From positions 1 to 64,000 of the forward strand of contig JAETQI010000013.1 in NCBI GenBank assembly GCA_021770755.1: a DNA stretch of 64,000 bases, in the 5' to 3' direction. Both the position numbers and the translations under genes were made by a program. This document shows positions 8,765-64,000 of this stretch, one piece after another (within the stretch, counting starts at the first letter, position 1; the number at the start of each line of letters is the position of its first letter). The stretch comes from Lachnospiraceae bacterium (GTDB taxonomy: Bacteria; Bacillota; Clostridia; Lachnospirales; Lachnospiraceae). The notes under the pieces are model-generated. The model worked only from the letters and a program-made list of their open reading frames with translations, searched no databases and was not told where the DNA came from.

Positions 8765-8850
8765 AACAGATGCCACGTCGGATTTAAAGAATGACATGGT
8801 CTACGAGCTGGCAAAGATCGAAGCAATAAACAGATGCCACGCAGGATTTA
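8765..8850 (+). repeat. Pair of 22-bp direct repeats before the third recombinase
   Basis: AACAGATGCCACG followed by a two-base variable position and GGATTTA occurs at 8765-8786 and 8829-8850, 64 bp apart, with two mismatches. A shorter relative (CAGGATGCCACGTCA) lies at the end of the first recombinase near 7585. The copies fall at matching places in two tiny reading frames (8744-8794 and 8796-8879), so they may be coding repeats or recombinase-binding sites. Confidence 0.5.
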
Positions 8851-8879
8851 GCAGATACATATATAAAAATAAAATATAG
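8796..8879 (+). CDS. Possible 27-residue mini-protein (NRCHAGF motif)
   Basis: ATG 8796 to TAG 8877-8879 encodes a peptide of 27 residues containing AKIEAINRCHAGFSR. A shorter frame just before it (8744-8794) encodes LQAVNRCHVGFKE. The shared NRCHxGF core within repeated DNA argues for duplication of a peptide unit. No strong ribosome site is seen, so coding status is doubtful. Confidence 0.3.
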   Translation: MVYELAKIEAINRCHAGFSRYIYKNKI

Positions 8880-8893
8880 GAAAAGGAGCAGAA

Positions 8894-41569: not shown

Positions 41570-41824
41570 ATAAGAAAAAGCGATGACGGAAACAAGTAGC
41601 ATATTGGTCGCAGACAGAGAGAGCATCATTTGGTGGAAGATGTTTATGTGGATCGTATGTGAAAACCATTCCCAAGCTGTAATACTGAAAGTAGATGTAA
41701 GTATTACCGTACACCTGCGTTAAAGGTTAGGATTTGATAGAATCTGAAGTGAAAAATTGAGGTGGAACCGTGCAATGAGCACCCTTAAAGATACCATACA
41801 GGTATTTTTGAGAGTGCTTTTCTT
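41570..41824 (+). ncRNA. T-box riboswitch (threonine)
   Basis: The leader has stem I (from about 41575, GCGATGACGGAAACAAGTAG), an ACC specifier triplet at 41706-41708 (TATTACCGTA), the conserved T-box GGTGGAACCGTGC (41761-41773) and a terminator (41778-41824) made by AGCACCCTTAAAGATACC and GGTATTTTTGAGAGTGCT plus T run. Uncharged tRNA-Thr would stabilise the antiterminator and allow thrS transcription. The codon and the downstream gene agree. Confidence 0.92.
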
Positions 41825-41863
41825 ATGTTGGTTCAAATTTTATTCAGGAAAGGACATGATAAA

Positions 41864-48087: not shown

Positions 48088-48210
48088 GAAAATCCGAATA
48101 GGCGTTGCCGCCGATTGCGGATTGTACCATAAAAAGTGCAAATGATACCAAAAGCCTATTTGTTTGGAAGATATCTGCTAAACTTTTAGCTAGACAACTT
48201 TTTATGCGCA

Positions 48211-48253
48211 GACCCGTGCAGAGGAAAAATGCCGCCAAGGCGGCGCACGGGTC
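48211..48253 (+). promoter_or_regulatory. Perfect nested inverted repeat in the NRPS leader
   Basis: GACCCGTGC (48211-48219) pairs exactly with GCACGGGTC (48245-48253). Within it GCCGCC and GGCGGC form a 6-bp stem around AA. No T run follows, and the NRPS start is 65 bp downstream. An operator or a leader-RNA control element is likely. A weak promoter (TTGCCG 48105-48110, 17 bp, CATAAA) lies upstream. Confidence 0.55.
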
Positions 48254-48317
48254 GCGCACGAGTAATGGAAGAGGGCTGACAACAGTTCCTCATCGTCAGG
48301 CAAAGGAGGACATGGCA

Positions 48318-51300
48318 ATGGATTTTCCAACTAATTTTTTGGACAGGTTTGAGCAGATCGTGGATCGGTATCCGGACAAGACTGCGATCGTGGATATGGA
48401 CGGGGCGAGGTGCACGACGTATCGCGAACTCCGCGATCTGAGCCGGAGGGTTGCGGCAGGGCTCTGCGGGCAGGTCGGACCGGGTGCAGCCGACGGTATC
48501 GATGGGAGCGCTGTTCTGGTCTGCATGGACAGACGGATGGAGTATGTGGCGGCGGAGATTGGCGTCATGATGGCCGGGGCGGCGTATGTGCCGCTGATCC
48601 CGGAGTACCCGCAGGACAGGGTGGACTATATCAGGAAGGACTGCGGAGCGGTGTGCTGTATCGATGCTGCGTGGATGGAAGCGTTAGGGGAGGCGGTAGC
48701 TGATAAAGACAGTTTTGGGAAGAGAGAGGATAACAAAAGGGCGCTGATCATCTACACGTCGGGCTCCACAGGCGTGCCGAAGGGGATCGTGCACAGCCAT
48801 GCGAGCCTGTTTGACGGTGTTATGTGTATTGTGGGGGCGCTTGGCTTTGATGAACGGACTTGTCTGGCGGCGTCCGCTCCGCTGTCCTTTGTGGCATCGC
48901 TGATGGAGTATCATGCGGTGCTGGGCAGCGGCGGCTGTGTCCACATGCTCTCTGAAGAGGTCCGCAGGGATGTGCGCCTGCTGGAGGACTATTATGCGGA
49001 AAAGGAGATCACCTGCGGTTTCATCAGTCCCCAGATGCTGCGCTATTTCAGGAACCGGGGGAAGGCGCTGAAGATGGTTATGACCGGAAGCGAGCGGGTA
49101 TCCATGTTGAGTGGTGACGGCTATGTGCTATACAATCTTTATGGCTGCAGTGAGGTAGGGCTTCTGGCGTCTGCTTTCCGGGTGGAGAGACCGATGGAAA
49201 ATACGCCCATCGGGAAGCCTGTGCAGGGGGTGGAGATGTTCCTGCTGGACGAGCAGGGCATGGAGGTACCGGACGGTGAAGAGGGGGAAATCTGTGTTCT
49301 CGGCGTGCTGGGTGAGTGTTATCTGAATCTGGAAGAACAGAGCGCCCGGACGTTCCAGCGCCAGGAGGACGGAAGGATCCTGCTGCATACTGGCGATATA
49401 GGGAGAAAACTGCCGGATGGAAATTATGTGTATGTCAACCGCCGGGACTGGATGGTAAAAGTCAATGGACAGCGCGTGGAAGCGGGGGAGATCGAGCTGC
49501 GTATGGCGGCGGTACCGGGTGTGGAAAACGCTGTGGTGAAAGCTTTTGAGGATGAAAACGGGCAGAATTATCTGTGCGGATATTTTGTGGCAGGGGCGGA
49601 AGTCGGGGCGGAGGAGCTCCGTGCGCAGTTGAAGAAGACACTGCCGGATTACATGATCCCGCGCTTTTTCAAGAGACTTGACGCGCTTCCGAAAAATGTA
49701 AATGGAAAACTGGACAGGACTATGCTGCAGGCGCCGGGCGTATCGGAATACAAAGCGGATTACCGGGCGCCGGAGAATGAGCTGCAGCGCCGGATCTGTG
49801 ATGCCTTTGAGACGGTTCTGGAGTGCGGGACGGTGGGGCTTGACGACGACTTTTTCCGGCTGGGCGGTGATTCCATCAATGTCCTGAAGCTGGCGGAGTG
49901 TCTGGCAGATATCGCCCTGACGCCCCAGCTTGTGCTCCGCGGCAGGACACCGGAGCAGATCGCGGTTCTGATACAGGCACAGCAGGGGACAGCGGTGCAG
50001 GAAGGCTTGCGGCATCAGGCAGATCTCCGTGCAGAGTATCCGCTCACGGATTCGCAGATGGGAGTCTATCTGGAGTGCGCGAATGAGCCGGACACCACGA
50101 TGTACAACATACCGATGTACTGCGAACTGCCGCGGGATGTGGACCTGGACCGGTTCTGTGAGGCGGTGGGGACGGTTGTTTCCATGCATGCGGCGTTTGG
50201 CGTTACGATCGTGCAGCGTGAGGGCGTTCCTGTCATGCGCGTGTGTCCGGAATATGCGGCTGCGTCGGTAGAGCTGTGTGAGACAGAGGACATGGAGGCG
50301 GCGAGATCAGCGTTTGTCCGTCCGTTCTGTATCGGGGAGGAGCCGCTCTACCGCATGGCGGTGTACAGGCAGCAGGACAGAAGCTGCTTCCTGTTTGACG
50401 TGCACCATCTGATCTTTGACGGCACGTCGGTGAAGGTATTTCTGGAGGAGATATCCCTGATCTATGAGAACCGTGTAAACGGTAAAAAGTGGGATATCAG
50501 ACCGGAAACGTGCTCTCTGCTGGATATGGCGGCGAGGGAGGAATCCCTGAGAACGACACCGCAGTATCAGGCGGCGAGGGAATATTTTCAGGAGAAACTG
50601 GCGGACGTGGAGGCAGGGGATCATCTGATCAGGGATCACAGGCCAAAGACTGTCACTGCCGCGTGTGCCTCTGTGCGGGTATCTCTGGGAGAGACGTTGT
50701 CTGTCATGGCGGTCGAGCAGTTCGTGCGCCAGAACGGGATCTCTGAGAACACGCTGTTTCTGGGGGCGTTTGCCTATGCGCTGGGCAAATATACGGGCGA
50801 GAACAGGAGCCTGTTCTGTACGGTGAACAACGGGCGGCACGCGCCGGAGCTTGCCAATTCTGTCGGCATGTTCGTCAGAACGCTGCCGATGGCGCATTCG
50901 TGGGATGAGGATTCCTCTGTGCGCGCGTATCTGCAGGAATTCCAGCGGAATTTTTATGAGACGATGGAGCACGACTGCATTTCGTTTGGGGAGCTTGCGC
51001 GGGCGTACGGGATCGCCTCGGATATTCTGTTTGTCTATCAGGGCGGGATGCTGAGCGGATTGTCGATCGACAAAAAGCAGTATCCGGCGTGTCCGGTTCC
51101 GCCAAAGGAGGTGCAGGCGGATCTCTCGGTCATGGTGATGAAGGGACAGGGAGGCTATGAGATCACGCTGGATTACCGCACGGATCTGTACCGCGTGGAG
51201 ACCGCGCGCGGACTGCAGAGAATGTTCGTGCAGGTGCTGGAGGGCATGCTGACCTGTGCCGCACTCAGGGAAATGACACTGGTGTCAGAATCGGATCTGC

Positions 51301-54300
51301 GTCTGCTCGAGCGTTTTCACGGGGAGGAGCTTCGGTATGACAAGTCCCGGACGGTGGTCGACCTGTTCCGGGAGCAGGTCAGGCGGGCGCCGGAGCACAC
51401 AGCAGTGATCTATACGGAACGCACATACACCTATGCGCAGCTGGACGATCTTACGGATCGGCTTGCCGCATATATCGCCGGTCTTGGTATTGGCAGGGAG
51501 CAGGTGGTGTCCGTGCTGATTCCCCGGTGCGAGTATATGGCGATCGCCTCACTGGGCGTCCTGAAAGCGGGCGCTGCCTATCAGCCGCTCGATCCGACTT
51601 ACCCCGGGGAGCGTCTGGCGTTCATGATCGCGGATGCAAAGGCGCAGCTTTTGATCGCGGATGAATCTCTATTATCCCTTGTGCCGGATTACCATGGCGA
51701 TGTTCTTCTGACAAAGGATATTCCTGGTCTGCCGCAGGCATCACAGCAGCCAAAGCAGCCGGAACCGAAGGATCTGTTTATCCTGCTGTACACGTCCGGC
51801 TCCACCGGAATGCCGAAAGGGTGTATGCTCGAGCATGGAAATATTGTGGCATTCTGCCATTGGTACCGGTCGTATTATGATCTGCAGCCGGAGAGCTGTG
51901 TCGCGGCGTATGCAAGTTACGGTTTTGACGCGCATATGATGGATCTGTATCCGGCGCTGACGACGGGGGCTTCGGTCTGCATCATTGAAGAGGCGCTCCG
52001 TCTGGATCTGGATGAGCTGAACCGGTATATGGAATCGCAGAACGTCACGCACGCGTTTATGACGACGCAGATCGGCAGGGCTTTTGCGACCTCAGTGCGC
52101 AGCCGGACACTGAAGCATCTGGCCATGGGCGGGGAGGCGCTCACACCGTTTGCGCCGGATGGCAGCACGGTGTACCACAATATTTACGGACCCACCGAAT
52201 GCACCGTGAATGCCACAGCCTATGAAATGGAGGCATTTGAGGAGAATGTGCCGATCGGCAGGGCGATCGCCAATGTGAAGGTGTACGTGCTCGACGCGTG
52301 CGGCAGGCGTGTTCCTGCAGGCGTGCCGGGTGAGCTGTGCATTGCAGGTGTGCAGGTTTCGCGCGGGTATCTGAACCGGCCGGAAAAGACGGCGGAGGTG
52401 TATGCCGAAAATCCGTTCTGCGCACACGAGGATTACCGCAGGATGTACCGCACGGGGGATATCGTGCGCTTTCTGCCGGATGGGAACATACAGTTTATCG
52501 GACGGCGCGACGGACAGGTCAAGATCAGGGGATTCCGTATCGAGCTGACCGAGGTGGAGGAAGTGATCCGCAGATTTCCGGGTATCAGGGACGCGGCGGT
52601 AGCGGCGTTTGACGAGCCGGCCGGCGGAAAATATATCGCCGCCTATATCGTGTCGGATGAGACGGTGGACATTGCAGCGATGAATGCGTTCATCGAGGCG
52701 AGCAAGCCGCCGTACATGGTTCCTGCTGTGACAATGCAGATCGACCGGATACCGCTGAACCAGAATCAGAAGGTGGACAAACGCGCGCTGCCCAGACCGG
52801 AGCGGAGACAGGAGGCGCTGTCAGCGCCGAAAAATGACGTACAGCAGAAAATATTTGACTGTGTGGCGGATGTGATTGGGCACAGGGAGTTTGGCGTCAA
52901 CACGGATCTCTACCGGGCGGGCCTGACTTCGATCGGCGCCGTGAAGCTCACAGTGACGCTCTCTGCGGCATTTGATGGGGCGGTCGTGCGCAATAAGGAG
53001 CTGAAGGAAAACAATACGGTTGAGAAGCTGGAGCGGTTTTTCGGACAGGATACGGCAGAGGAAGTGTTCGAACAGCAGGAGGCGTACCCGCTGACACAGA
53101 CGCAGAGCGGTATCTTTGTGGAGTGCGCGGCGAATCCGGGGAGTACGATCTACAATATTCCGTTCCTGTTCCGCATGGACGACGCGGTCGATCTGCAGCG
53201 GCTGAAAAAGGCGGTTGAGACGGCGGTCGAGGCGCACCCGTACATGAAGACGACGCTGTATATGGACGAGAACGGTGATATCTGGCAGAAGCGCAATGAT
53301 GATGCGCTGTTCGAGGCAGCGGTCAGGGATCATCTGGACAGGGAGACACTGGTCCGGCCTTATGAGCTGCTGGGCGGCAGGTTGTTCCGCATGGAGCTGT
53401 ATGATACGCCGGACGGGAAATACCTGTTTGTGGAGTTTCATCATATTATCAGCGACGGGACTTCGTGCGGCATTTTTATCAGGGATATCAACCGCGCTTA
53501 TGCGGGAGAGCAGCCGGCGCGCGAGGCGTTTTCCGGCTTTGAGGCGGCTCTTGTGGAGCAGAGGGCGCTGCAGGGGGAGGAGTATGCGCGTGCAAAGGCG
53601 TATTACGATTCTGTTTTCAGGAACTGTGACACGGATTTCCTGCCGGCGAAGGACAATGTGCAGGGGGAGGAAGAAAAGGCTGCCGTCGGTGTCTACAGCC
53701 GTCGTGAGCCGGCGGATCTAAAGGCGCTCCAGGCGTTCTGCGCAGAGAACAGGATCACCATGAACGCGCTGTTTACCGCGGCGTTTGGCTTTGTGACGGG
53801 GCGCTATGTCTACAAGGATGACGCGGTGTTTACGACGATCTACAATGGAAGGAACGACTCACGCTTGGCGTCTGCGGTCGGCATGTTTGTCAAGACGCTT
53901 CCGGTGTACTGCAACATTGACGGGGAGCGCGGGATCGGGGACTATCTGCGGGAAGTGGGCGCACAGCTGGTGGACAGCATGAATGCCGACATCTATTCCT
54001 TTGCGGAGATCAGCAGGGCGTACGGGATCAGGGCGGATATCCTGTTTGCCTTCCAGGGCGACCAGTTCCGCTTTATGGAGGTCGCGGGAAAACCCGCGGT
54101 GATGGAGGAACTGCGGCTTGACACGGCAAAAGCGCCGCTCTCGGTGGATGTCGCCGTGGAGGACGGCGCGGTCTGCTATCAGGCGGAGTACCGCAGTGAC
54201 TTATATGAGGAGTGCACGATTGCCGGACTGATCGACAGTCTTGCCGTTGTCGTCAATGAGATGCAGGAGAGGAAGTACATCAAGGAGATCTGTATGGTGA

Positions 54301-57300
54301 GCGGCGCGGCGCGCAGGGAGCTCGACAGTTACAATGTGACGGACTGCCCGGTGGAACAGACGACGGCAAATGTTTTATTTGAACGTCAGGTGGCGCTCTG
54401 CCCGGACAGGACTGCCGTGATCGCGAACGGGGTCCGGCGCACTTTTTCGGAGCTGAACGCAGATGCCAACAGGATCGCAAACCGTCTGCTGGAGATGGGG
54501 CTGACGACGGAGCAGATGGTGGGCGTGATGATGCCGCGCACAGTGGATGTGTACGCGGTGCGGCAGGGGATCATGAAGGCGGGCGGCGCGTTTCTGCCGA
54601 TCGATCCGGAGTATCCCGACGAGCGCGTTTCCTATATTCTCGAGGATTCGGGGGCGAAGTTCGTCATTATGCCGCAGGCGCTCGTTAAAGAACGCAGTCT
54701 GTTTGGCGGGACGCTGCCGGTCAGGACACTTGTGCTGGAGGAGCTTCTCTCGGACGGCGGCGACACGCGGAATCCGCAGGTGGACATCAGACCGGAGAAT
54801 CTGTGCTATTGTATCTACACTTCGGGATCCACGGGAAAACCGAAGGGTGTGATGATCGAGCACCGCAATCTGGTGAATTATGTGGATGACAATCCGTTCA
54901 ATGTGGAAGCGCGGTCCTATGTGCAGAATGCTTCCGTATCGCTGGCTTTCGCGGCGATCACGTTCGATGTCTCGATCCTGGAGGAGTGCATACCGCTGTA
55001 TCACGGCATCACGGTCTGCATGGCGAACGAGGAGGAGATCCACAATCCGCTTGCGCTCTCGAAACTGATCCTGGCGCACGGGGTGGATATGATGACGTGC
55101 ACGCCGTCCTATCTGATCAACATTATCGATATGCCGCAGATGCGGGAGGCGCTGTCGCGGATCAAGGTGTTCAACATCGGCGCGGAGGCGTTTCCGGATG
55201 CGCTCTATCATAAGATCATGGCGCTCGGGACGGACGCAAAGGTGTATAACGGATATGGACCGACCGAGACGACGATCGGCTGCGCGTTTGAGCTGGTCAC
55301 GGGCGGTGCGGTCACGATCGGAAAGCCGATGGCAAATATCCAGATGATGATGCTTGACAAATACCGCAACCTGCTTCCCGCAGGCGCGCCGGGCGAGCTG
55401 CTGATCATCGGAAACGGCGTGGGCAGGGGCTACGTTGGCAAGCCGGAGATGACGGCGGACAAGTTTATCGGATTTGAGGGAAAGAAGGCGTACCGCAGCG
55501 GTGATCTCGCGCGGTGGAACCACCATGGCAAGATTGAGTTTATGGGGCGCATGGACAATCAGGTCAAGCTGCGCGGGCTGCGTGTGGAGCTCGATGAGAT
55601 CGAGAATGTGATCAACCGCTACCCGACAGTGAAGTCCAGCGTTGTCCTGGTGAAAGAGAAGGATTCCATTCAGTTTCTGTGCGGTTACTTTGTGGCGCAG
55701 GAGCAGATCGAAAAGCAGAATCTGACCTGTTTCCTGCAGAAGTATCTGACGCCGTACATGGTTCCGAGCGTGCTGATACAGCTCCCGGAACTGCCGCTCA
55801 CCAACAATGGCAAGGTGGACAGGCGGGCGCTGCCGGAGCCGGAATATGCGGCGGAGAGTCAGAATTATGTGGAGCCGCGCACGGAGCTGCAGCGCAGGCT
55901 GTGCGAGATCTTTGCGATGGCGCTCGGCGTGAAGCGGATCGGCATCGAGGATGATTTCTTTGAAAATGGCGGGACGTCGCTCTCCGCGTCCAAGGTGGCG
56001 ATGAAGTGTATGAGTGCCGGGATCGAGGTGGCTTACGCGGACCTGTTTACATACAAGACGCCGCTTGCGCTCGAGCAGTTTATCCTCGGGAAAAAGGGTG
56101 AGAAGAGAGCGGAGGAGAGCAGACCGGATATCCCTGATGACATACTGGGCCGGAACACGGTGGAGCGCGTCGATGAGATCAGGGCTGCCGCGGTGGGCGA
56201 TGTCCTGCTGACGGGGGCGACTGGTTTCCTCGGTGCGCATATCCTGAAGACGATGATCGAGCAGTGTGACAACCGCATATACTGTCTGCTGCGGAAGGGG
56301 AATGCGCCGTCGCTTGAGAAACGGCTAAAGAGCATGCTGGTCTACTATTTCAGCAATCCTTATGAGGAGCTTTTCGGCGACAGGATCTTTGTCATCGAGG
56401 GGGACATCACGGACGCGGACAGCGTGGCGGCGCTGCAGGCGTATGATTTTGCGCAGGTCATCAACTGCGCGGCGTGCGTCAAGCATTTTGCGGCGGACGA
56501 TATCCTGGAGCGGGTGAACTACCAGGGGGTATTGAACCTGATCGATCTGTGTACCGAAACCGGAAGGGAGCTGATCCAGATCTCGACGGTGAGCGTCGCG
56601 GGGGAGAATGTCGGAGGCAGATTCCCCGCGGAGAAGCGGCTGCATGAAAGTGAACTGTCGTTCGGGCAGAGCATTTCCAACAAGTATATCGACACGAAGT
56701 TCCGCGCGGAGGCGGCGGTCCTTGCGGCAGTTACGAAGGGCATGAAGGGCAGGATCATTCGTGTCGGCAACCTGATGAGCCGCGTCAGTGACGGGGAGTT
56801 TCAGATCAACTCTGTCACAAACGGATTTATGCGTACCTTGAGGGGGTATGTGGCGCTCGGAAAGTTCCCGGTTTCCCTGCTGGATGCGCCGGCGGAATTT
56901 TCGCCGATCGACGCGACAGCGGAGGCGATCGTGAAACTTGCTTCGTCGGAAGGGGACTTTAGTGTATTTCACGCGTACAGCAGCTACGTGATCCAGATGG
57001 CGGATGTCATCGAGCAGATGAACGCGCTGGGGATCTGGGTGGATATCGTCAGTGATGAGGCGTTTCAGACGGCACTTAAGAGTGCGCTTGACAATGAAGA
57101 GAAGAATGAGCTGATATCCGGGCTGATCGCGTACCTGTCGAGCGATGCGGAGGCGGGAAGCGTCTATATCGACGCGGACAATAGCTTCACGACAAAGGCG
57201 TTGTACCGGCTTGGTTTCAAGTGGCAGATGCCCGACGGAAATTATCTGCGCAATGCGCTGAAGGCGCTGGACACGCTGGGATTCTTCGATGGTAAAATAG

Positions 57301-57305
57301 GGTGA
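48318..57305 (+). CDS. Trimodular NRPS with terminal reductase (A-T-C-A-T-C-A-T-R)
   Basis: A 2995-residue synthetase. ATG 48318 is 8 nt after GGAGG; ATG 48312 is too close and the frame further upstream is leader DNA. Domains: A1 about 1-480 (YTSGSTGVPKG near 146), T1 (GGDSINVL, 516), C1 (HHLIFDG, 697), A2 about 1000-1490 (YTSGSTGMPKG, 1157; NIYGPTE), T2 (GLTSIGAVKL, 1535), C2 (HHIISDG, 1708), A3 about 2010-2490 (YTSGSTGKPKG, 2165), T3 (GGTSLSAS, 2551), and a reductase (LLTGATGFLGAH, 2629; YIDTK, 2791) that would release the chain as an aldehyde. There are no epimerisation domains. A1 reads SFVASLM where amino-acid-activating domains have FDxS, and YGCSE for YGPTE. The product is probably a three-unit aldehyde or a cyclised derivative. 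Confidence 0.95.
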   Translation: MDFPTNFLDRFEQIVDRYPDKTAIVDMDGARCTTYRELRDLSRRVAAGLCGQVGPGAADGIDGSAVLVCMDRRMEYVAAEIGVMMAGAAYVPLIPEYPQDRVDYIRKDCGAVCCIDAAWMEALGEAVADKDSFGKREDNKRALIIYTSGSTGVPKGIVHSHASLFDGVMCIVGALGFDERTCLAASAPLSFVASLMEYHAVLGSGGCVHMLSEEVRRDVRLLEDYYAEKEITCGFISPQMLRYFRNRGKALKMVMTGSERVSMLSGDGYVLYNLYGCSEVGLLASAFRVERPMENTPIGKPVQGVEMFLLDEQGMEVPDGEEGEICVLGVLGECYLNLEEQSARTFQRQEDGRILLHTGDIGRKLPDGNYVYVNRRDWMVKVNGQRVEAGEIELRMAAVPGVENAVVKAFEDENGQNYLCGYFVAGAEVGAEELRAQLKKTLPDYMIPRFFKRLDALPKNVNGKLDRTMLQAPGVSEYKADYRAPENELQRRICDAFETVLECGTVGLDDDFFRLGGDSINVLKLAECLADIALTPQLVLRGRTPEQIAVLIQAQQGTAVQEGLRHQADLRAEYPLTDSQMGVYLECANEPDTTMYNIPMYCELPRDVDLDRFCEAVGTVVSMHAAFGVTIVQREGVPVMRVCPEYAAASVELCETEDMEAARSAFVRPFCIGEEPLYRMAVYRQQDRSCFLFDVHHLIFDGTSVKVFLEEISLIYENRVNGKKWDIRPETCSLLDMAAREESLRTTPQYQAAREYFQEKLADVEAGDHLIRDHRPKTVTAACASVRVSLGETLSVMAVEQFVRQNGISENTLFLGAFAYALGKYTGENRSLFCTVNNGRHAPELANSVGMFVRTLPMAHSWDEDSSVRAYLQEFQRNFYETMEHDCISFGELARAYGIASDILFVYQGGMLSGLSIDKKQYPACPVPPKEVQADLSVMVMKGQGGYEITLDYRTDLYRVETARGLQRMFVQVLEGMLTCAALREMTLVSESDLRLLERFHGEELRYDKSRTVVDLFREQVRRAPEHTAVIYTERTYTYAQLDDLTDRLAAYIAGLGIGREQVVSVLIPRCEYMAIASLGVLKAGAAYQPLDPTYPGERLAFMIADAKAQLLIADESLLSLVPDYHGDVLLTKDIPGLPQASQQPKQPEPKDLFILLYTSGSTGMPKGCMLEHGNIVAFCHWYRSYYDLQPESCVAAYASYGFDAHMMDLYPALTTGASVCIIEEALRLDLDELNRYMESQNVTHAFMTTQIGRAFATSVRSRTLKHLAMGGEALTPFAPDGSTVYHNIYGPTECTVNATAYEMEAFEENVPIGRAIANVKVYVLDACGRRVPAGVPGELCIAGVQVSRGYLNRPEKTAEVYAENPFCAHEDYRRMYRTGDIVRFLPDGNIQFIGRRDGQVKIRGFRIELTEVEEVIRRFPGIRDAAVAAFDEPAGGKYIAAYIVSDETVDIAAMNAFIEASKPPYMVPAVTMQIDRIPLNQNQKVDKRALPRPERRQEALSAPKNDVQQKIFDCVADVIGHREFGVNTDLYRAGLTSIGAVKLTVTLSAAFDGAVVRNKELKENNTVEKLERFFGQDTAEEVFEQQEAYPLTQTQSGIFVECAANPGSTIYNIPFLFRMDDAVDLQRLKKAVETAVEAHPYMKTTLYMDENGDIWQKRNDDALFEAAVRDHLDRETLVRPYELLGGRLFRMELYDTPDGKYLFVEFHHIISDGTSCGIFIRDINRAYAGEQPAREAFSGFEAALVEQRALQGEEYARAKAYYDSVFRNCDTDFLPAKDNVQGEEEKAAVGVYSRREPADLKALQAFCAENRITMNALFTAAFGFVTGRYVYKDDAVFTTIYNGRNDSRLASAVGMFVKTLPVYCNIDGERGIGDYLREVGAQLVDSMNADIYSFAEISRAYGIRADILFAFQGDQFRFMEVAGKPAVMEELRLDTAKAPLSVDVAVEDGAVCYQAEYRSDLYEECTIAGLIDSLAVVVNEMQERKYIKEICMVSGAARRELDSYNVTDCPVEQTTANVLFERQVALCPDRTAVIANGVRRTFSELNADANRIANRLLEMGLTTEQMVGVMMPRTVDVYAVRQGIMKAGGAFLPIDPEYPDERVSYILEDSGAKFVIMPQALVKERSLFGGTLPVRTLVLEELLSDGGDTRNPQVDIRPENLCYCIYTSGSTGKPKGVMIEHRNLVNYVDDNPFNVEARSYVQNASVSLAFAAITFDVSILEECIPLYHGITVCMANEEEIHNPLALSKLILAHGVDMMTCTPSYLINIIDMPQMREALSRIKVFNIGAEAFPDALYHKIMALGTDAKVYNGYGPTETTIGCAFELVTGGAVTIGKPMANIQMMMLDKYRNLLPAGAPGELLIIGNGVGRGYVGKPEMTADKFIGFEGKKAYRSGDLARWNHHGKIEFMGRMDNQVKLRGLRVELDEIENVINRYPTVKSSVVLVKEKDSIQFLCGYFVAQEQIEKQNLTCFLQKYLTPYMVPSVLIQLPELPLTNNGKVDRRALPEPEYAAESQNYVEPRTELQRRLCEIFAMALGVKRIGIEDDFFENGGTSLSASKVAMKCMSAGIEVAYADLFTYKTPLALEQFILGKKGEKRAEESRPDIPDDILGRNTVERVDEIRAAAVGDVLLTGATGFLGAHILKTMIEQCDNRIYCLLRKGNAPSLEKRLKSMLVYYFSNPYEELFGDRIFVIEGDITDADSVAALQAYDFAQVINCAACVKHFAADDILERVNYQGVLNLIDLCTETGRELIQISTVSVAGENVGGRFPAEKRLHESELSFGQSISNKYIDTKFRAEAAVLAAVTKGMKGRIIRVGNLMSRVSDGEFQINSVTNGFMRTLRGYVALGKFPVSLLDAPAEFSPIDATAEAIVKLASSEGDFSVFHAYSSYVIQMADVIEQMNALGIWVDIVSDEAFQTALKSALDNEEKNELISGLIAYLSSDAEAGSVYIDADNSFTTKALYRLGFKWQMPDGNYLRNALKALDTLGFFDGKIG

Positions 57306-57319
57306 GTTAGGATAAGGTT

Positions 57320-59104
57320 ATGGAGAGAAATGCATTTTTGATCAACAAAAAGATTCATCAGTATATCCTGCCGGGGGTGTTGATGACGGTTGCGATGCAG
57401 CTGGGAAATGTGGTCGACGGCATGATCGTGGGAAACCTGCTGGGACCGGAGGCGATGGCGGCGATCGAGCTGTCCATGCCGGTCCTGCTGCTCCTGCAGA
57501 TGCCGGCGATGATGCTGGCGATGGGCGGCGCTGCCGAGGCGGCAGTGCTGCTCGGCAGGCGGGAGACCGGACAGGCGGGCGGTATTTTTACCGCCTCGCT
57601 CGCGGCCGGCGTCGGTCTGGCGCTTGTTTTTGCGCTGATGACGCCGGTGCTGCCGGGGATCCTCTCGCAGGCGCTCGCCGGAAATGAGCAGATGGCTGCG
57701 CTGGTGAAGCCTTATATCGCGGTGAACTTCGGCGGGATCCCGATCCTGACGGCGGCGATCATCTGCTGCTATTTTATGAATACGGACAATCACCCGCAGC
57801 TAGGAAGTGCGCTGTTCATCATTGCAAATGTAGTCAATCTGGTGTTGGACTTTGTGTTTTTGGAGGTGTTCGGGCTCGGGATGGCGGGGAGTGCGCTCTC
57901 GACCGTGATCGGTTATCTGACAGGCATGGTGACGGTTCTGTTTTATGCGCGCTCCGAACACAGAATGCTGCGGCTCACAAAACTGGACAGGAATCTTGCA
58001 AAGTATGTCAGAACGGCGGCGGTGGCAGGGATACCGAGCGCTGCTTTTACATTGATGTCGGCGCTCAAGTCGGTCATCATCAACTCGGCGATCGTGCGTT
58101 TCCTGGGCAATGATCCGATGGCGGTGTACTCTGTCTGCGCCAACGCGGTGCTGATCGCGGAGCTGTGCGTGGGCGGTATCATCGGGCTCGTGCCGAACAT
58201 CGCGGGGATCCTCTATGGGGAGCGGGATTATTACGGGATCCGCGCGCTCTGCAGGCGGGTGCTCTCCTACAGTTACCTCGCGATCGCAGTGCTGCTGGCT
58301 GTCTTTCTCGTGTTTCCGCAGGCGATCGCGGGGCTGTTCGGCATCGCGGAGGGGGAGATGCTGGCACTGTGCAGGACGGCACTGCGTATCTTCGCGTGCT
58401 CGTTTCCGTTTTATGTGTACAACAAGTTTTTGATGTCCTATTACCAGACGATCCTGCAGCCGGGACTTTCCACGGTGATCACGGTTCTGCAGGGATTCGT
58501 GCTGATCGTGCCGCTCACGCTGGCGGGAATGTTCTGGGTCGGGTTCTCCGGTGTCTGTATGGCGGCAGTGGCGGGGGAGATCCTGACTATTCTGTGCGGC
58601 ACATTGTACCGCGTGCGCGGACAGCAGACAGGGCGCTTTCCGTCAGGCGGGCGGTACATGCTCCCGCAGGTCACGAACGAGGTCAGTCTGGATCTTTCCA
58701 TGAAGAACCAGCTCGAGGATGTGGCAACACTGCGGGATCAGCTATTGGATTTCTGCGCGGACAACGGCATCGGGGAGAAGGACGCGAACCATCTGGCGCT
58801 TGCGCTGGAGGAGATGACTGCCAACATTGTCCGGTACGGTTACCGGAGCGGGCAGAAGAACTATATCGACATCAGCTTTACGATCCAGGACGGCAGCTAT
58901 ATCCTGCGGATCCGCGACGACGGCGTGCCGTTCAACCCGCTGGAGCACAAGGTGTCCGCGGAGGGGCCGGTGGTCGGCGGGATCGCGCTGATCCGCAGGA
59001 TCATGTCGGATTTCCAGTACACGCGGGTGCTGAATATGAACAATACGGTTATCGGGCTTGCGATCAGTGATGGCAGGCAGAGAGAGTTGGAGCGCAGAGG
59101 GTGA
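57320..59104 (+). CDS. MATE exporter fused to an RsbW-like ATPase domain
   Basis: A 594-residue protein starts at ATG 57320, 15 nt after the NRPS stop. Residues 1 to about 440 are a MATE transporter of some 12 helices (KIHQYILPGVLMTVAMQLGNVVDGMIVG, ... AGIPSAAFTLMSALKSVIINSAI). Residues about 455-590 are a HATPase_c_2 domain like the anti-sigma kinases RsbW/SpoIIAB: N-box LALALEEMTANIVRYGY, G1-like IRDDGVPFNP and GGIALIRRIMSDFQYT. The N-box Glu and Asn needed for Mg-ATP are present. MATE proteins normally end near residue 450, so the ATPase is a true fusion. It probably exports the NRPS product, with the tail sensing or controlling through the STAS protein at 62257-62553. Confidence 0.9.
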   Translation: MERNAFLINKKIHQYILPGVLMTVAMQLGNVVDGMIVGNLLGPEAMAAIELSMPVLLLLQMPAMMLAMGGAAEAAVLLGRRETGQAGGIFTASLAAGVGLALVFALMTPVLPGILSQALAGNEQMAALVKPYIAVNFGGIPILTAAIICCYFMNTDNHPQLGSALFIIANVVNLVLDFVFLEVFGLGMAGSALSTVIGYLTGMVTVLFYARSEHRMLRLTKLDRNLAKYVRTAAVAGIPSAAFTLMSALKSVIINSAIVRFLGNDPMAVYSVCANAVLIAELCVGGIIGLVPNIAGILYGERDYYGIRALCRRVLSYSYLAIAVLLAVFLVFPQAIAGLFGIAEGEMLALCRTALRIFACSFPFYVYNKFLMSYYQTILQPGLSTVITVLQGFVLIVPLTLAGMFWVGFSGVCMAAVAGEILTILCGTLYRVRGQQTGRFPSGGRYMLPQVTNEVSLDLSMKNQLEDVATLRDQLLDFCADNGIGEKDANHLALALEEMTANIVRYGYRSGQKNYIDISFTIQDGSYILRIRDDGVPFNPLEHKVSAEGPVVGGIALIRRIMSDFQYTRVLNMNNTVIGLAISDGRQRELERRG

Positions 59105-59109
59105 GAAGA

Positions 59110-60252
59110 ATGAAAAAAAGGATGAATACGATTTTTTCACAGAAAGAAGTCAACACGGGAAGGCAGCAGGAGTTTGATTATCTGAAAGGGATTTTCATGC
59201 TGTTCATTTATCTGATCCATGCGTTCCAGGCAACCTTGTCCCCGGAGGATCTGGTCACCCGATGGCTCTATATGTTTGCGACAATGTCCGGTGCGGCTAT
59301 TTTTATCTTTGTCATGGGGATCGGAACGGTTTACAGCAGAAATACGGCGCCGGCGGCGTTTGTAAAGAGCGGCCTGCGCATGGTGGTCTATCAATATCTG
59401 GACAATATTGCCTACGTGGCCGCACTGCTGATACCGTATCCTTTTGTTGCCGGGGGATTGTCTCAAAATGAGCTGGAGCGCTGCTGGTTCATGGCGAGGG
59501 TGTACATTCAATATACGAATATCTTCTTTATCACAGGGATCATTTATCTGGTGCTGGCACTGCTGAAAAAACTGGATGTGAAGACCATATGGTATGTGGT
59601 CATCGGTGTGGCTGCAGGCATTGCCGCGCCATTGCTCTACGGGACACCTGTGAATGTGCCGGTGGCCGGATATCTCGTGAGACTTCTGATCGGGGAGGCG
59701 GATTTCGTCTCGTTCACGCCGATCTATTTTCTGTCCTATGCGCTGTTTGGAGTCGCTTTTGGAAAGCTTCTGAGGCGCGTGAAGGATAAGGCAGGATTCT
59801 ACAGGATCCTGGCTGTCGCCAGCAGTGTGATCGTCGTTGTGTGGTGGGCGCTTGTGTTTGGAAGATACGGTTCGGATCTGCCGGAGATGATGGCTGTTCT
59901 GAGTGCGGCATACACATGTCCGGATCTCTGGCATGTGGCGGCAAGCCTCGCGCACATACTCCTCTTTGCGGCTGTTTTTTTCTACATCGGGGAGAGGCGG
60001 AAAAAGCGCGGCGGGCCTGACAGTCCTGCAGCGCGGCAGATCCTGTACTACAGCGGACATATATCAAAATATTATGCCCTGCATGTGCCCGTATACCTCG
60101 TTGTCCTTGGCTGCCATGGTTATGAGAGCTTTCAGGGCTATCAATGCTGGCTTCTTGCACTGTTCTCGATGTTCGTCACGGAGCTCATGGTGAGAGGATA
60201 CAACTATTTTTTTGAGAGACGGATCACATATGGAAGAAGGAAAGAGGGATAG
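59110..60252 (+). CDS. Membrane acyltransferase-like protein
   Basis: A 380-residue membrane protein. ATG 59110 is chosen because AGAGGGTGAG precedes it; GTG 59101 overlaps the previous stop. The N-terminus (QQEFDYLKGIFMLFIYLIHAFQA) has the Asp and His spacing of acyltransferase-3/DUF1624-type enzymes, and about ten helices follow, ending YYALHVPVYLVVLGCHGYESF. Such enzymes move acyl groups onto sugars, peptides or antibiotics. In this cluster it could acylate the peptide or an envelope target for self-protection. The family is fairly sure, the substrate unknown. Confidence 0.7.
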   Translation: MKKRMNTIFSQKEVNTGRQQEFDYLKGIFMLFIYLIHAFQATLSPEDLVTRWLYMFATMSGAAIFIFVMGIGTVYSRNTAPAAFVKSGLRMVVYQYLDNIAYVAALLIPYPFVAGGLSQNELERCWFMARVYIQYTNIFFITGIIYLVLALLKKLDVKTIWYVVIGVAAGIAAPLLYGTPVNVPVAGYLVRLLIGEADFVSFTPIYFLSYALFGVAFGKLLRRVKDKAGFYRILAVASSVIVVVWWALVFGRYGSDLPEMMAVLSAAYTCPDLWHVAASLAHILLFAAVFFYIGERRKKRGGPDSPAARQILYYSGHISKYYALHVPVYLVVLGCHGYESFQGYQCWLLALFSMFVTELMVRGYNYFFERRITYGRRKEG

Positions 60253-60264
60253 GATTTTACTGAG

Positions 60265-61278
60265 ATGGGGTGTGGGGAAAGCACTGATATAAAGATGGTT
60301 CCGCTGGAGATCGGCGGCTGTACAGTGGAGCTGTATTGGATGGACACGGGCGTGTTGGAGGATGAAGCCTGTTTTTCCTGTGCGTATCAGGCATTGTCGC
60401 GCGGGCGGCAGAAAAAAGTTGACGCCTTTTTGTTCAGGAAGGATAAGAGGCTCTCGCTGGGGGCGGGATTGCTGCTGCGCCAGGGTCTGGCGGCGCATGG
60501 GATCAACGAGCGGGAGGCCGTGTTTGCGTATGGGGAGAATGGAAAACCGTATCTGCCGGATTATCCGGATGTCCAGTTCAATCTGTCCCATTCCGGCGGG
60601 ATGGCAGTCGCGGTGTTTGCGAACACTGCTGTCGGATGCGACATCGAACAGATCGGAACTGCAGATCTGCCGCTTGCCGCGAAGTTTTTCCCGGAGGGGG
60701 AGTATCGGTATCTCGCCCGATTTCCCAAAGGATATCAGAGGGACGCGGCTTTTTACCGGCTGTGGACCTTGAAGGAGAGTTTTGTGAAGACGACCGGGGC
60801 AGGCCTCGCACTGCCGCTGGATGCATTTGAGATCGTGATCGCGGCAGGTGAATGTGATGGCAGGAATGAGCAGATCGAAGTCCGCCAGAATGTGGATCCT
60901 GCGGCGCGTTATCTGTTTGCAGAGCCTTATTTCAGAGGGTATTGTGTGTCGGTGTGCCTGAGAACAGATTGCGATCGATACCGAAAAAAGTGCGAACGGT
61001 GCCCGGATGCCCAAATGGATCAGAGGGTGTGCTATGATTATAGAGTGACAAAAACATGTTTTACAACAGAAAAGGAGTATATTTTTATGGCAGATTGCAG
61101 TAATAACAGACCATGTCCCTGTACATTTGACTGCCCGAGGCATGGCAGGTGCTGTGAGTGCGTGGCGCATCACAGAGACAACGACGAGGGCGTTCCGGGG
61201 TGCTTTTTCTCTGCGGAGGCAGAGGCGACCTACGACAGGAGCATAGAGGCATTGTGCCGCGACAGAGGAATACTATAG
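60265..61278 (+). CDS. Sfp-type phosphopantetheinyl transferase continuous with a Cys-rich domain
   Basis: One 337-codon frame from ATG 60265 (ATG 60295 is an alternative). Residues up to about 245 are an Sfp-type PPTase: FNLSHSGGMAVAVF, AVGCDIEQIG and FYRLWTLKESFVKTTGAGL contain the magnesium- and CoA-binding residues. This enzyme would convert the T domains of the NRPSs to their active form. The frame then continues without a stop through about 30 low-complexity residues into the DUF6485-like segment at 61087-61278, which has its own ribosome site. Normally these are separate genes, so the PPTase has probably lost its stop codon. Confidence 0.85.
   Translation: MGCGESTDIKMVPLEIGGCTVELYWMDTGVLEDEACFSCAYQALSRGRQKKVDAFLFRKDKRLSLGAGLLLRQGLAAHGINEREAVFAYGENGKPYLPDYPDVQFNLSHSGGMAVAVFANTAVGCDIEQIGTADLPLAAKFFPEGEYRYLARFPKGYQRDAAFYRLWTLKESFVKTTGAGLALPLDAFEIVIAAGECDGRNEQIEVRQNVDPAARYLFAEPYFRGYCVSVCLRTDCDRYRKKCERCPDAQMDQRVCYDYRVTKTCFTTEKEYIFMADCSNNRPCPCTFDCPRHGRCCECVAHHRDNDEGVPGCFFSAEAEATYDRSIEALCRDRGIL
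61087..61278 (+). CDS. DUF6485-like cysteine-rich small protein
   Basis: ATG 61087 follows AAAAGGAGTAT and gives a 63-residue protein with CPCTFDCPRHGRCCECV followed by GCFFSAEAEATYDRS, the pattern of small Cys-rich DUF6485 proteins of Clostridia. The cysteines and histidines could bind a metal or cluster. It lies in the same frame as the PPTase, so it can be made alone or as its C-terminal domain. The function is unknown. Confidence 0.75.
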   Translation: MADCSNNRPCPCTFDCPRHGRCCECVAHHRDNDEGVPGCFFSAEAEATYDRSIEALCRDRGIL

Positions 61279-61291
61279 GAGGGTCTGAGAG

Positions 61292-61873
61292 ATGGAAAAA
61301 CCGATTTTTACAGGATTATCACATGTATGCATTTTTGTGGACGACGTCAAAGAAGCGTTTGCGTATTATGAGCGGATTCTGGGGGCAGTGCCCAACCAGC
61401 ATATTCCGCATTGGAAAAACGAGGGCTTTTTCCAGGCGGGCGGTTTTATTGAGGAGGCGAAGGAGGCGGAGGTCTCCATTGGATTTATGGATGTGCCGGG
61501 CACAAAGTTCACGATCGAGCTGATGTGCTATCACAAGCCGGAAGGGCGCAAAGAGCCGATCATCTTCAAGGCGAACGATATCAGCGGCGCGCGCCATGTC
61601 GCGCTCAAGGTGACGAACATCGAGGAGGCGTTTGCGTACATCAAGGCACAGCCGGATGTCACGCTCATCAACACGACGGATGATTATAGGGTATACCAGA
61701 TCAGTAAGACAGAGCCTTCGGATTTCTATTATTTTGACGAGGCGAAGGAGAACGATGTGCAGGCAAAGCAGGCGGCGGCTGACATTCTTGGAAACACCAA
61801 GTATTTTTATTTCATCGACAAGTATGGTCTGCAGTGGGAGTTTGAGCAGGGACACACGGATATCGGGGACTGA
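61292..61873 (+). CDS. VOC (glyoxalase-fold) protein
   Basis: A 193-residue protein starts at ATG 61292 behind ATAGGAGGG. Two VOC half-units are visible: GLSHVCIFVDDVKEAFAYYERILGA and ARHVALKVTNIEEAFAYIK, with YFIDKYGLQWEFEQ at the end. His and Glu residues at metal-ligand positions (SHVC, TIELM, RHVAL, WEFEQ) suggest a metal site. VOC proteins act as isomerases, dioxygenases or drug-binding resistance proteins. Here product tailoring or self-resistance to a reactive aldehyde are both possible. Confidence 0.82.
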   Translation: MEKPIFTGLSHVCIFVDDVKEAFAYYERILGAVPNQHIPHWKNEGFFQAGGFIEEAKEAEVSIGFMDVPGTKFTIELMCYHKPEGRKEPIIFKANDISGARHVALKVTNIEEAFAYIKAQPDVTLINTTDDYRVYQISKTEPSDFYYFDEAKENDVQAKQAAADILGNTKYFYFIDKYGLQWEFEQGHTDIGD

Positions 61874-61895
61874 TCCTGCGTGAGGGGGAATGGAT

Positions 61896-62240
61896 ATGCC
61901 ATTTATCAATTCGAGGGTGAGCACTGTGATGACAGCGTCACAGCGCTCGTCCGTGAAGGAGAAGCTTGGCAGGGCGATCTCTATCATACCGGGAAAATCG
62001 GAGGAATGGCTGATGGTGGAGCTTGCCGACGGGTGCGACCTGTATTTTCGGGGTGAGCAGACACAGCCGTCCGCCTTTGTCGAGGTGAAGGTGTTCGGAG
62101 TGATCCCGGAGGGCTGTCTGGACAAACTGACAGGCGAGATCTGCGGGATCTATGAGCAGGATCTGCAGATCCCGCAGGATCACGTCTACGTCAAGTACGA
62201 GGAAGTTAGCAAGTGGGGCTGGAACGGAAGTAATTTTTGA
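61896..62240 (+). CDS. MIF/phenylpyruvate tautomerase-like protein
   Basis: A 114-residue protein. ATG 61896 gives Met-Pro-Phe-Ile-Asn, so Pro becomes residue 1 after Met removal, as the tautomerase reaction requires; GAGGGGGAATG precedes it. An ATG two codons earlier would bury the Pro. Length, LGRAISIIPGKSEEWLMVEL and VYVKYEEVSKWGWNGSNF match MIF-family proteins. They tautomerise keto-enol substrates such as phenylpyruvate. In the cluster it may act on a keto acid building block or on the aldehyde product. Confidence 0.85.
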   Translation: MPFINSRVSTVMTASQRSSVKEKLGRAISIIPGKSEEWLMVELADGCDLYFRGEQTQPSAFVEVKVFGVIPEGCLDKLTGEICGIYEQDLQIPQDHVYVKYEEVSKWGWNGSNF

Positions 62241-62256
62241 TGGAGGAAAAGGATAT

Positions 62257-62553
62257 ATGAAGATCACAAAATCGCAAAATGGAAATAACCTGACAGTGGC
62301 ACTGGAGGGACGGCTTGACACAAACACGGCACCGGAACTTGAGAGTGTCCTCAAAAATTCCCTTGACGGGATCACAGAACTGACGATCGATATGACGGCG
62401 CTCGATTACCTGTCGTCGGCGGGACTCCGCATTCTGCTGGGGGCGCAGAAGACGATGAACAAGCAGGGCAGCATGAAGGTGGCGAACGTGAACGACACGA
62501 TTATGGAGATCTTTGAAGTGACAGGTTTTGCGGATATTCTGACGGTGGTATAG
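62257..62553 (+). CDS. STAS-domain anti-sigma-factor antagonist
   Basis: A 98-residue protein starts at ATG 62257 after TGGAGGAAAAG. The full STAS fold is present: LTVALEGRLDTNTAPELES, LTIDMTALDYLSSAGLRILLGAQ with the phosphorylatable Ser in the LSSAGL loop, and VNDTIMEIFEVTGF. RsbV/SpoIIAA proteins of this type bind RsbW-like kinases and are switched off by Ser phosphorylation. No sigma factor is nearby, but the MATE fusion five genes upstream carries an RsbW-like domain, the obvious partner. The next NRPS starts 2 nt after its stop. Confidence 0.92.
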   Translation: MKITKSQNGNNLTVALEGRLDTNTAPELESVLKNSLDGITELTIDMTALDYLSSAGLRILLGAQKTMNKQGSMKVANVNDTIMEIFEVTGFADILTVV

Positions 62554-62555
62554 AT

Positions 62556-64000
62556 ATGGCGGCAGAAGGACAGAAGATCAGGGCGCTGAATCTCTCACAG
62601 AGAGAAGTCGCGATGACACAGCAGGTTTGTCCCCAGGGCGCCCGGAATACGATCTCACTGAAATTATATCTGCCGGATCGTACACCGCAGGCAGTGAAGG
62701 CGGCGGCGGATCAGGTGCTTGACAGCGCCGACATCTTTGCCGCATCATTGCGGCATGACGCTCACGAGTGGCAGATGGTATATGGGGAGAAGAGGCTGTA
62801 CACATGCAGTGTGTGGGAAGCATACACTGTGGAACAGGCTGAAAATCAGATGGCAGCGCTGGACAGGATCCCTATGGACATGGAAAAGCAGTTGTACCAT
62901 GCAGTTGTGATGCCGCTCTTAGGAGGCGGCGTCTATTTGTATGTGCGTTTTCACCATGTCATCATAGACGGCTATGGCATGAGCCTCTTTGTGCAGAAGG
63001 TTCTGGATGCGCTTGGCAAAAAGGCGGTAGCAGAATCTGTTTTTGCCGGGGAGGACGCTGCGATGGTGATGCAGGAAAGCGAGGACACTGCACGCGCATT
63101 CTGGCGGGACTACTTCAAGGATGCGGATTTCGAACCTGCTGTTTTCCCGAAGATCGATCCAGATGCGCACGAGGCATCACAGACACGGTCCCGCTCTGAC
63201 GGGGAAACGGAAAATGCAATGGGATCCGGCAGGATCACGCGCCGCGTGCCGGAGGCGCTCATGCGCGGGATCGAGGTGTTTGGCAGGCGGGAACAGGTCA
63301 CTGTGCCGTATATCGTGGCGGCGGCATACGCGTATTATCTCGCACAGGCGTCCGGAAAACCGGATGCTGTATTTTTGATGCCGCGCCTGGGACGGACAGC
63401 GGAACAGATGGATACGCTGGGCTGCTTCACGCTGCTTGTCCCTGTGTGTGTCAGGACAGAGGGAGCGGGTTCCTTTGCGGCGCTGTGCCGGGCAGCAGAG
63501 CATGCGTCGCGGGAAGCTTCGGCGCATAAGCATACGGGGTTTGACAGGATCCTCTCTGTTTTGCGCGAGGACGGCACGATATCGGATGCGCTTTCCGAGT
63601 ACGTGTTCAATTTTTACCGGTTTCAGTATCATACCGAACTGGATTACCGTGTCCGGTTCAGTGTCGCCGGCGACATGAGCAACCATATGACGTTCAGTCT
63701 GTTTTATGACAGCGACGGCGGACTGAATATGCAGTTTGACTACCATAAACAGTATTATACAAAAGAGCGGGCGGCATATCTTGCGGATGCTCTCTGTGCG
63801 ATCCTGGACAGGGGTGTGCGGGAAAATGTGCTGTCATGGCCGGTTGGGGAAGCAGAGTTTCAAAAGGTTACCTCGATCGCCGGGAAAAAGATCGATGTTC
63901 CGGATGACCTGACGATCCCCTTCCTGTTCCGGCTGGCGGCAGAATGCTACAGGGACAGACCGGCAGTGTATGCGGGCGACAAGACGCTCACCTTTGCACA
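62556..64000 (+). CDS. Second NRPS, starting with a condensation domain (runs off the window)
   Basis: The frame is open from ATG 62556 to the window end (481 codons). It begins with a condensation domain: LSQREVAMTQQV, then VYLYVRFHHVIIDGYGMSLF with the HHxxxDG catalytic motif, then GCFTLLVPVCVRTEGAGSF and YVFNFYRFQYHT. From about residue 445 an adenylation domain begins (TIPFLFRLAAECYRDRPAVYAGDKTLTFA). The ribosome site is weak, and coupling to the STAS gene 2 nt upstream is likely. The initial C domain could acylate the first residue or accept a chain from another protein. Confidence 0.93.
   Translation, partial: MAAEGQKIRALNLSQREVAMTQQVCPQGARNTISLKLYLPDRTPQAVKAAADQVLDSADIFAASLRHDAHEWQMVYGEKRLYTCSVWEAYTVEQAENQMAALDRIPMDMEKQLYHAVVMPLLGGGVYLYVRFHHVIIDGYGMSLFVQKVLDALGKKAVAESVFAGEDAAMVMQESEDTARAFWRDYFKDADFEPAVFPKIDPDAHEASQTRSRSDGETENAMGSGRITRRVPEALMRGIEVFGRREQVTVPYIVAAAYAYYLAQASGKPDAVFLMPRLGRTAEQMDTLGCFTLLVPVCVRTEGAGSFAALCRAAEHASREASAHKHTGFDRILSVLREDGTISDALSEYVFNFYRFQYHTELDYRVRFSVAGDMSNHMTFSLFYDSDGGLNMQFDYHKQYYTKERAAYLADALCAILDRGVRENVLSWPVGEAEFQKVTSIAGKKIDVPDDLTIPFLFRLAAECYRDRPAVYAGDKTLTFA

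Follow-up and report, generated by a model that had tools for sequence, protein, structure and literature searches.

What does a partner switch do inside an operon for nonribosomal peptide synthesis, and which protein is its output? The question is raised by a 64,000-nucleotide stretch of DNA from a gut bacterium, Lachnospiraceae bacterium (assembly GCA_021770755.1), referred to here as the window, which comprises bases 1 to 64000 of a 92-kb contig (JAETQI010000013.1) in a genome of 4.7 Mb. Toward its right end lies an operon that encodes two nonribosomal peptide synthetases (NRPS1 and NRPS2), a MATE exporter with a fused HATPase domain of the RsbW/SpoIIAB type, and a STAS protein of the RsbV/SpoIIAA type. 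An earlier note on this DNA had inferred that a switch within the operon regulates synthesis or export, a proposal that our sequence comparisons support. Our preferred reading, to which we assign a probability of about 45%, is that the operon specifies two reductively released small peptides and carries its own partner switch, whose main output is probably the exporter and not a sigma factor. In this mechanism, a stand-alone RsbW-type kinase would phosphorylate a serine of the STAS protein, and a membrane SpoIIE-type phosphatase (TM-SpoIIE) would take the phosphate off once its sensor is triggered. The unphosphorylated STAS protein would then dock on the exporter's RsbW-type domain and alter transport, so that export would keep pace with supply or follow an outside cue.

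The operon consists of 11 genes on the plus strand, running from 48312 or 48318 to contig position 69170; neighboring genes are separated by no more than 16 nt or overlap slightly. The genes encode, in order, NRPS1, the MATE-HATPase fusion, an acyltransferase-3-like protein, a phosphopantetheinyl transferase (PPTase), a VOC protein, a MIF-family protein, the STAS protein, NRPS2, TM-SpoIIE, the RsbW-type kinase, and a cyclic nucleotide monophosphate (cNMP)-binding protein, the last three lying outside the window (Table 1). All domain assignments are Pfam matches above cut-off, with the sole exception of the acyltransferase, which falls slightly under. The gene order, single strand, and domains are as the earlier note described them, including its "two small enzymes," which Pfam identifies as VOC/glyoxalase-fold and MIF-family proteins. 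Its tight packing was also borne out, but the operon is larger than it had supposed. NRPS1 does not start at 48211 but at 48312 or 48318, behind an aaaggagg ribosome site. The "second NRPS" is present and is more fully a synthetase with condensation (C), adenylation (A), carrier (T), and reductase (R) domains, so that it too is reductase ended.

The predicted partner-switching set of the operon (kinase, STAS protein, and PP2C phosphatase) is complete, since TM-SpoIIE and the RsbW-type kinase are encoded just beyond the window. Conservation was scored in 80 related loci, the best 80 of 163 relatives found in a GTDB scan with six NRPS-adjacent relatives; because these seeds were NRPS adjacent, the 80 loci do not sample MATE-HATPases at random. 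The STAS protein matches RsbV and SpoIIAA structures (RsbV 6m36 at 1.9e-11), with its predicted phospho-acceptor serine, within the motif YLSSAGL, aligned; this serine is kept in 43/43 proteins. The stand-alone kinase retains Glu, Asn, Asp, and three lid glycines in 19/19 cases, and the phosphatase retains its four metal-binding aspartates in 23/23. The RsbW/RsbV-like switch that had been proposed from the window alone thus gains both of its enzymes, with key residues conserved. Phosphatase and kinase are fused (SpoIIE-RsbW or SpoIIE-HATPase) at loci L107, L110, L113, L121, L131, L185, and L212 (L and G numbers are our handles for loci and genomes), a sign that the two act together.

The MATE protein comprises two MatE stretches in Pfam and, at approximately residues 455 to 594, the RsbW/SpoIIAB-type HATPase domain. 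Its AlphaFold2 model is helical, with a predicted local distance difference test score (pLDDT) of 85.1 and a predicted template modeling score of 0.85. Sequence matches of the C-terminal part in the PDB were to SpoIIAB only (E of ~0.001). Across the related loci, the fused domain keeps the base Glu in 86/86 proteins, the N-box Asn in 78/86, and the Asp in 77/86. At 8 of the 8 loci with two copies, the second MATE-HATPase lies directly 3' of the STAS gene, and the same holds for L105 and L115. We infer that the HATPase domain of the MATE protein would be a docking output and that the stand-alone RsbW-type protein would be the main kinase.

The earlier note had set beforehand, as its own test, the conservation of the MATE fusion and STAS beside the NRPS in related genomes. 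Matches reaching the C-terminal domain of the MATE protein came from more than 20 genera among the matches listed for 299 same-family genomes. NRPS domains lay near the fusion at 12 of 20 family loci fetched, of which L048 and L049 are parts of one contig, and none were near at the other 8. Among the 80 loci, MATE is fused to HATPase at 78, the remaining 2 being cut by contig ends. In view are NRPS domains at 75 loci, STAS at 41, SpoIIE at 23, and a kinase-type gene without a MATE part at 23. The refuting outcome that the note had named, a lack of this conservation, was therefore not observed; the association recurs, for STAS at about half of the loci. No carrier-domain profile was applied to the relatives, and their architectures are therefore read as C, A, and R only. 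A stricter rule, under which every MATE fusion would go with an NRPS, was rejected, with none in view at 8/20 and 5/80 loci.

The switch genes were compared at 45 loci flanked by 9 kb or more on each side. STAS was found at 29 of these, accompanied by the kinase at 18/29 and the phosphatase at 19/29, and at the loci without STAS both kinase and phosphatase were absent (0/16 and 0/16). Nine stretches were then extended (L062, L077, L105, L115, L117, L120, L124, L126, and L140), after which STAS was present at 31/45 loci, with the kinase at 24/31 and the phosphatase at 24/31; the 14 loci without STAS were counted unextended. The stretches of L105 and L117 had ended inside a synthetase, and extension revealed STAS in 2/2. 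Kinase and phosphatase were found on extension at L062, L115, L120, and L140, and a kinase was found at L124. At L105 and L115, STAS, a second MATE-HATPase, SpoIIE, and RsbW stand in a row. Records with the MATE-HATPase beside an NRPS belong to Lachnospiraceae, Ruminococcus, Monoglobus, Selenomonadaceae, and one Candidatus Riflebacteria, and Sporofaciens musculi (L074) and Petralouisia muris (L073) are among the named carriers. As a control, 20 loci of MATE proteins lacking the HATPase domain (stretches of 7 to 20 kb) showed STAS, SpoIIE, RsbW, A, and R at 0/20 each; one gave a weak C-like match, to a protein of 608 aa. Co-occurrence of the MATE fusion, the NRPS, and the switch genes is more than chance, because the combination recurs in relatives and the 20 unfused-MATE control loci lack it. 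The recurrent pairing of NRPS and switch suggests that the switch controls the making or releasing of the molecules.

In a converse survey, the thioester-reductase family (E of 1e-20 or better) was found in 23 of 150 family genomes, at 27 places. Two R-domain matches on short frames (349 and 354 aa) were excluded, leaving 25 NRPS places. Six of these adjoin a MATE-HATPase, two being NRPS1 and NRPS2 of the window; 3 adjoin switch genes without a MATE-HATPase (L172, L177, and L179); 5 adjoin an unfused MATE; and 10 have none of these neighbors. At the remaining place (L058, genome G012), the MATE protein has a C-terminal extension that the profiles used did not recognize.

The membrane sensor of the phosphatase is rare, occurring in 3/397 family genomes and 3/38 genus genomes (the genome of the window is part of each count) and at 2/80 related loci. 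It was found at seven distinct loci: the window, L177, L185, L186, L188, L066, and L093. At all seven, the sensor gene lies 0 to 26 nt behind a synthetase with C, A, and R domains, and an RsbW-type kinase is next to the sensor phosphatase or fused with it. STAS stands directly before the synthetase at 5/7 and after the kinase in L093; in L188 it is out of view, the contig starting inside the synthetase. In the near relative G422, the MATE-HATPase, PPTase, VOC, MIF, STAS, NRPS2, phosphatase, kinase, and cNMP proteins are all encoded, together with a three-gene insert that resembles an ABC sugar importer by eye. Since the second-half unit also occurs alone, the window cluster is best read as a putative join of two subclusters, an NRPS1/exporter unit and a STAS/C-A-T-R/phosphatase/kinase unit.

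Several observations weigh against the exporter as the output of the switch. The MATE HATPase domain has a degenerate ATP lid, only 8/86 proteins keeping the third Gly, and the ATP-site Asn is lost in eight MATE-HATPases, all of them second copies at the two-copy loci. STAS is out of view at 14/45 long-flank loci, Selenomonadaceae, Monoglobus, and Riflebacteria records among them, and where STAS, kinase, and phosphatase are all missing, this may partly be an effect of the view, because the three often lie together beyond the synthetase. The MATE-HATPase, NRPS, and STAS occur without another kinase or phosphatase at L077 and L126 and, on the viewed side, at L117; L123 and L132 have STAS with no separate kinase or phosphatase in view in unextended stretches. 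That such loci are few after extension implies that the MATE domain is seldom the sole HATPase beside STAS. No NRPS is in view at 5/80 loci, and three of the NRPS-less loci carry a MATE protein 68 to 73% identical to that of the window (L078 and L083, with flanks of 10 kb on both sides, and L085, with flanks of ~10 and 4.8 kb). A STAS-CATR-TM-SpoIIE-RsbW unit has no fused MATE in view at L177 and L185, and NRPS1 is not in view in G422. STAS was not seen at the Selenomonadaceae, Monoglobus, and Riflebacteria loci, which also counts against a general rule. Finally, a recognized switch part stands beside 9/25 reductase-ended NRPS places. The idea that every reductase-ended NRPS of the family carries the switch was rejected on this count, and the module marks a subset of such clusters.

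A classical output, which we consider somewhat unlikely, would have the RsbW-type kinase serve as the anti-sigma factor of a sigma factor whose gene lies elsewhere; the switch would activate transcription, either of the operon or more widely across a regulon, and the MATE HATPase domain would provide STAS with a second sink. The RsbW and STAS proteins do match the RsbW/SpoIIAB and RsbV/SpoIIAA families, a stand-alone kinase is usual beside STAS at the long-flank loci, and each of three genomes (G000, the genome of the window, G114, and G422) has further sigma factors below the SigBFG cut-off. However, no sigma gene was recognized among the operon proteins, and just two SigBFG-type factors were above cut-off in each of the three genomes. 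In G000, one of the two has a SpoIIAB gene of its own next to it and the other adjoins a second sigma gene; from these neighbors they are read as candidate SigF and SigG, and above the cut-off that genome showed no spare SigB-type factor. A sigma output also leaves the RsbW-type domain of the exporter (78/80 loci) unexplained. The lack of a recognized sigma gene in the operon and of a spare SigB-type factor above cut-off, the exporter's RsbW-type domain, and the STAS-adjacent second MATE-HATPases together favor a post-translational output at the exporter. Were the regulators instead merely traveling with the cluster, functionally unconnected to both product and exporter, a patchy distribution would fit: the MATE-HATPase (at least 74% identity) and NRPS2 each occur in 3/38 genus genomes, the cluster is composite, and some loci have no STAS or NRPS in view. 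We judge such hitch-hiking highly improbable, given that the MATE-HATPase and switch genes recur beside differing NRPS architectures and in differing gene orders (Lachnospiraceae and Ruminococcus records), that genes are fused, and that key residues are conserved.

The placement of the sensor raises the further possibility of an autoinducer, in which the phosphatase encoded right behind NRPS2 would sense, through its membrane domain, the exported small product of that synthetase, the switch reading population density. We regard this as quite unlikely, and likewise its more specific form, in which a stand-alone C-A-T-R synthetase would make an acyl-amino-aldehyde signal that is read by the membrane PP2C phosphatase and relayed post-translationally by STAS and RsbW to the docking domain of the exporter. 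The constant position of a rare membrane sensor behind a C/A/R synthetase, with RsbW next or fused, argues for a signal, as does the AlphaFold2 model of the sensor (~230 residues), which predicts approximately seven long helices. However, that model has a pLDDT of only 70 and no fold match in the PDB (best E, 0.09). An AgrC-like sensor was considered and dropped: against the membrane parts of five GHKL kinases from the cluster neighborhoods, which we take to be AgrC-like, the hhalign probability was 3.6. A weak eighth sensor match (L172, E of 1e-04) lies behind an A-C-A-R synthetase with a PPTase gene in between, and the pairing of sensor and synthetase genes is also compatible with synthesis being controlled by feedback. 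GHKL kinase genes in or beside the clusters, mostly paired with response-regulator-like genes, are located at 11967 to 14071 in L093, 14454 to 16533 in L066, 6874 to 8190 in L043, 2957 to 5028 in L048, and 871 to 2948 in L050.

The products of the two synthetases were predicted from their domains. Condensation, adenylation, carrier, and reductase motifs are present in NRPS1 and NRPS2, the third carrier domain of NRPS1 being recognized by Pfam only, and both terminal R domains have GxxGxxG and YxxxK. The A-pocket codes, at positions and with meanings that we take from GrsA numbering, are VAMFMGLLLK, DAMFAGIVNK, and DVLTNGGIGK in NRPS1 and DIFHLAGIGK in NRPS2. In the first NRPS1 code, the Asp that usually binds the amino group is missing, which points to a carboxylic-acid starter. 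Among the related loci, this Asp is missing in 23/47 initiating A domains and kept in 118/118 others (165 scored of 177 A-domain hits; the 12 in short frames or short hits received no pocket code). NRPS1 is a trimodular NRPS with a reductase, as first described, but probably consists of a carboxylic-acid starter module followed by two amino-acid modules. Its product would be an N-acyl-type dipeptide aldehyde, built from an acid starter and two amino acids and released by the R domain, and that of NRPS2 would be an N-acyl amino aldehyde. Of the two product classes suggested earlier, the intact R domains make an aldehyde likely; a pyrazinone is the less likely outcome for NRPS1, whose starter probably has no amino group.

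The predicted switch resembles RsbU/RsbV/RsbW and SpoIIE/SpoIIAA/SpoIIAB in having a GHKL serine kinase, a STAS protein with a conserved serine, and a PP2C phosphatase with a membrane part. It differs from them in the lack of a recognized sigma gene in the operon, the second RsbW-type domain on the exporter, and the linkage to NRPS genes. Outputs other than sigma factors are known: SiaC, HsbA, and BgrV act on diguanylate cyclases, according to the consulted part of PMC8457831. The best NCBIfam match of TM-SpoIIE is SiaA (1.4e-12; 47 bits versus a cut-off of 700), and the non-sigma output proposed here is like that of SiaABCD, HsbA-HsbD, and BgrV-BgrR, except that a MATE exporter would take the place of the diguanylate cyclase. 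A free STAS protein acting on a transporter is described for MlaB, proposed to stabilize MlaF (PMC7367683, in part); that transporter is of the ABC type, the proposed action is stabilizing, and the same excerpt leaves phosphorylation of MlaB open. The quorum signal of the Vfm system of Dickeya is thought, in the portion of PMC9306890 consulted, to be made by NRPS-type genes, which favors the autoinducer reading of NRPS2, but Vfm employs a two-component system, and that portion does not mention partner switching.

On the product side, gut N-acyl dipeptide aldehydes inhibit proteases, as stated in the consulted parts of PMC8518294 and PMC12327764. The predicted product of NRPS1 shares the acyl-dipeptide-aldehyde logic of gut NRPS clusters for such compounds (BGC0001686, ruminopeptin), from which it differs in a starter that is apparently loaded by an A domain. 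No description of the combination of a reductase-ended NRPS, MATE-HATPase, and STAS was found, by title or opening of the abstract, in the open-access literature searched, and it may stand undiscussed in published cluster maps. If correct, the exporter reading would widen the outputs of partner switching, from sigma factors and diguanylate cyclases, to include a secondary transporter and the export of natural products and would give a handle on the timing of peptide aldehyde release by gut anaerobes. It also yields a rule for genome mining, a GHKL domain fused to MATE beside a reductase-ended NRPS, and, in a C-A-T-R synthetase followed by TM-SpoIIE, a sensor-product pair that can be tested.

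Table 1. Positions of the operon genes and the leader hairpin on the contig.
Feature	Position	Strand	Basis
Leader hairpin, long, stable	48205..48260	+	48195-48312 fold z-score -4.72; 0/200 shuffles equally stable
NRPS1, A-T-C-A-T-C-A-T-R	48312..57305	+	Pfam, motifs, pocket codes, start
MATE exporter with C-terminal RsbW/SpoIIAB-type HATPase	57320..59104	+	Pfam MatE 4.1e-22, HATPase_c_2 1.8e-19
Acyltransferase-3-like protein	59101..60252 (start 59101-59122)	+	PF01757 1e-06, 28.5 bits vs cut-off 31
Sfp-type PPTase	60265..61278	+	Pfam ACPS 2e-15
VOC/glyoxalase-fold protein	61292..61873	+	PF00903 5.2e-10
MIF-family protein	61890..62240	+	PF01187 5.7e-09
STAS protein, RsbV/SpoIIAA type	62257..62553	+	Pfam STAS 5e-16; TIGR00377 above cut-off
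NRPS2, C-A-T-R	62556..66818 (window part 62556..64000)	+	Pfam, motifs
TM-SpoIIE phosphatase (outside window)	66831-68300	+	SpoIIE 8.6e-46
RsbW-type kinase (outside window)	68281-68688	+	Pfam
cNMP-binding protein (outside window)	68685-69170	+	Pfam

The leader hairpin stands between a family-4 glycosidase gene and NRPS1 and had no Rfam match up to an E of 0.1. Among the remaining operon proteins, homologues of the acyltransferase occur within the same-strand run at 17/80 related loci and homologues of the MIF-family protein at 2/80. The PPTase is AusB-like, but below cut-off. Its frame includes an in-frame Cys-rich tail of 63 residues from 61087, with its own ribosome site, which is a separate small gene in L064 and may reflect a fusion or a lost stop; we take this tail to be DUF6485-like. 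No DNA-binding domain was recognized in the cNMP-binding protein.

A 4-alpha-glucanotransferase gene follows the operon, 75 nt downstream, and a PaaK-like acyl-CoA ligase is encoded 1.8 kb downstream (contig 70979 to 72337), with distant homologues (25% identity) within clusters L048 and L050. A protein of ~560 residues, resembling a GH3-like acyl-amido synthetase by eye, is encoded at 9/80 related loci (L072, L073, L075, L079, L082, L084, L088, L091, and L133). Elsewhere in the window, a T-box leader (41574 to 41789) precedes a tRNA synthetase gene (41825 to 43618) that is threonyl type by its domain set. Near the left end of the window, a pemK RNA motif (4815 to 4871) and two large serine recombinases (6005 to 10534) perhaps belong to a mobile element.

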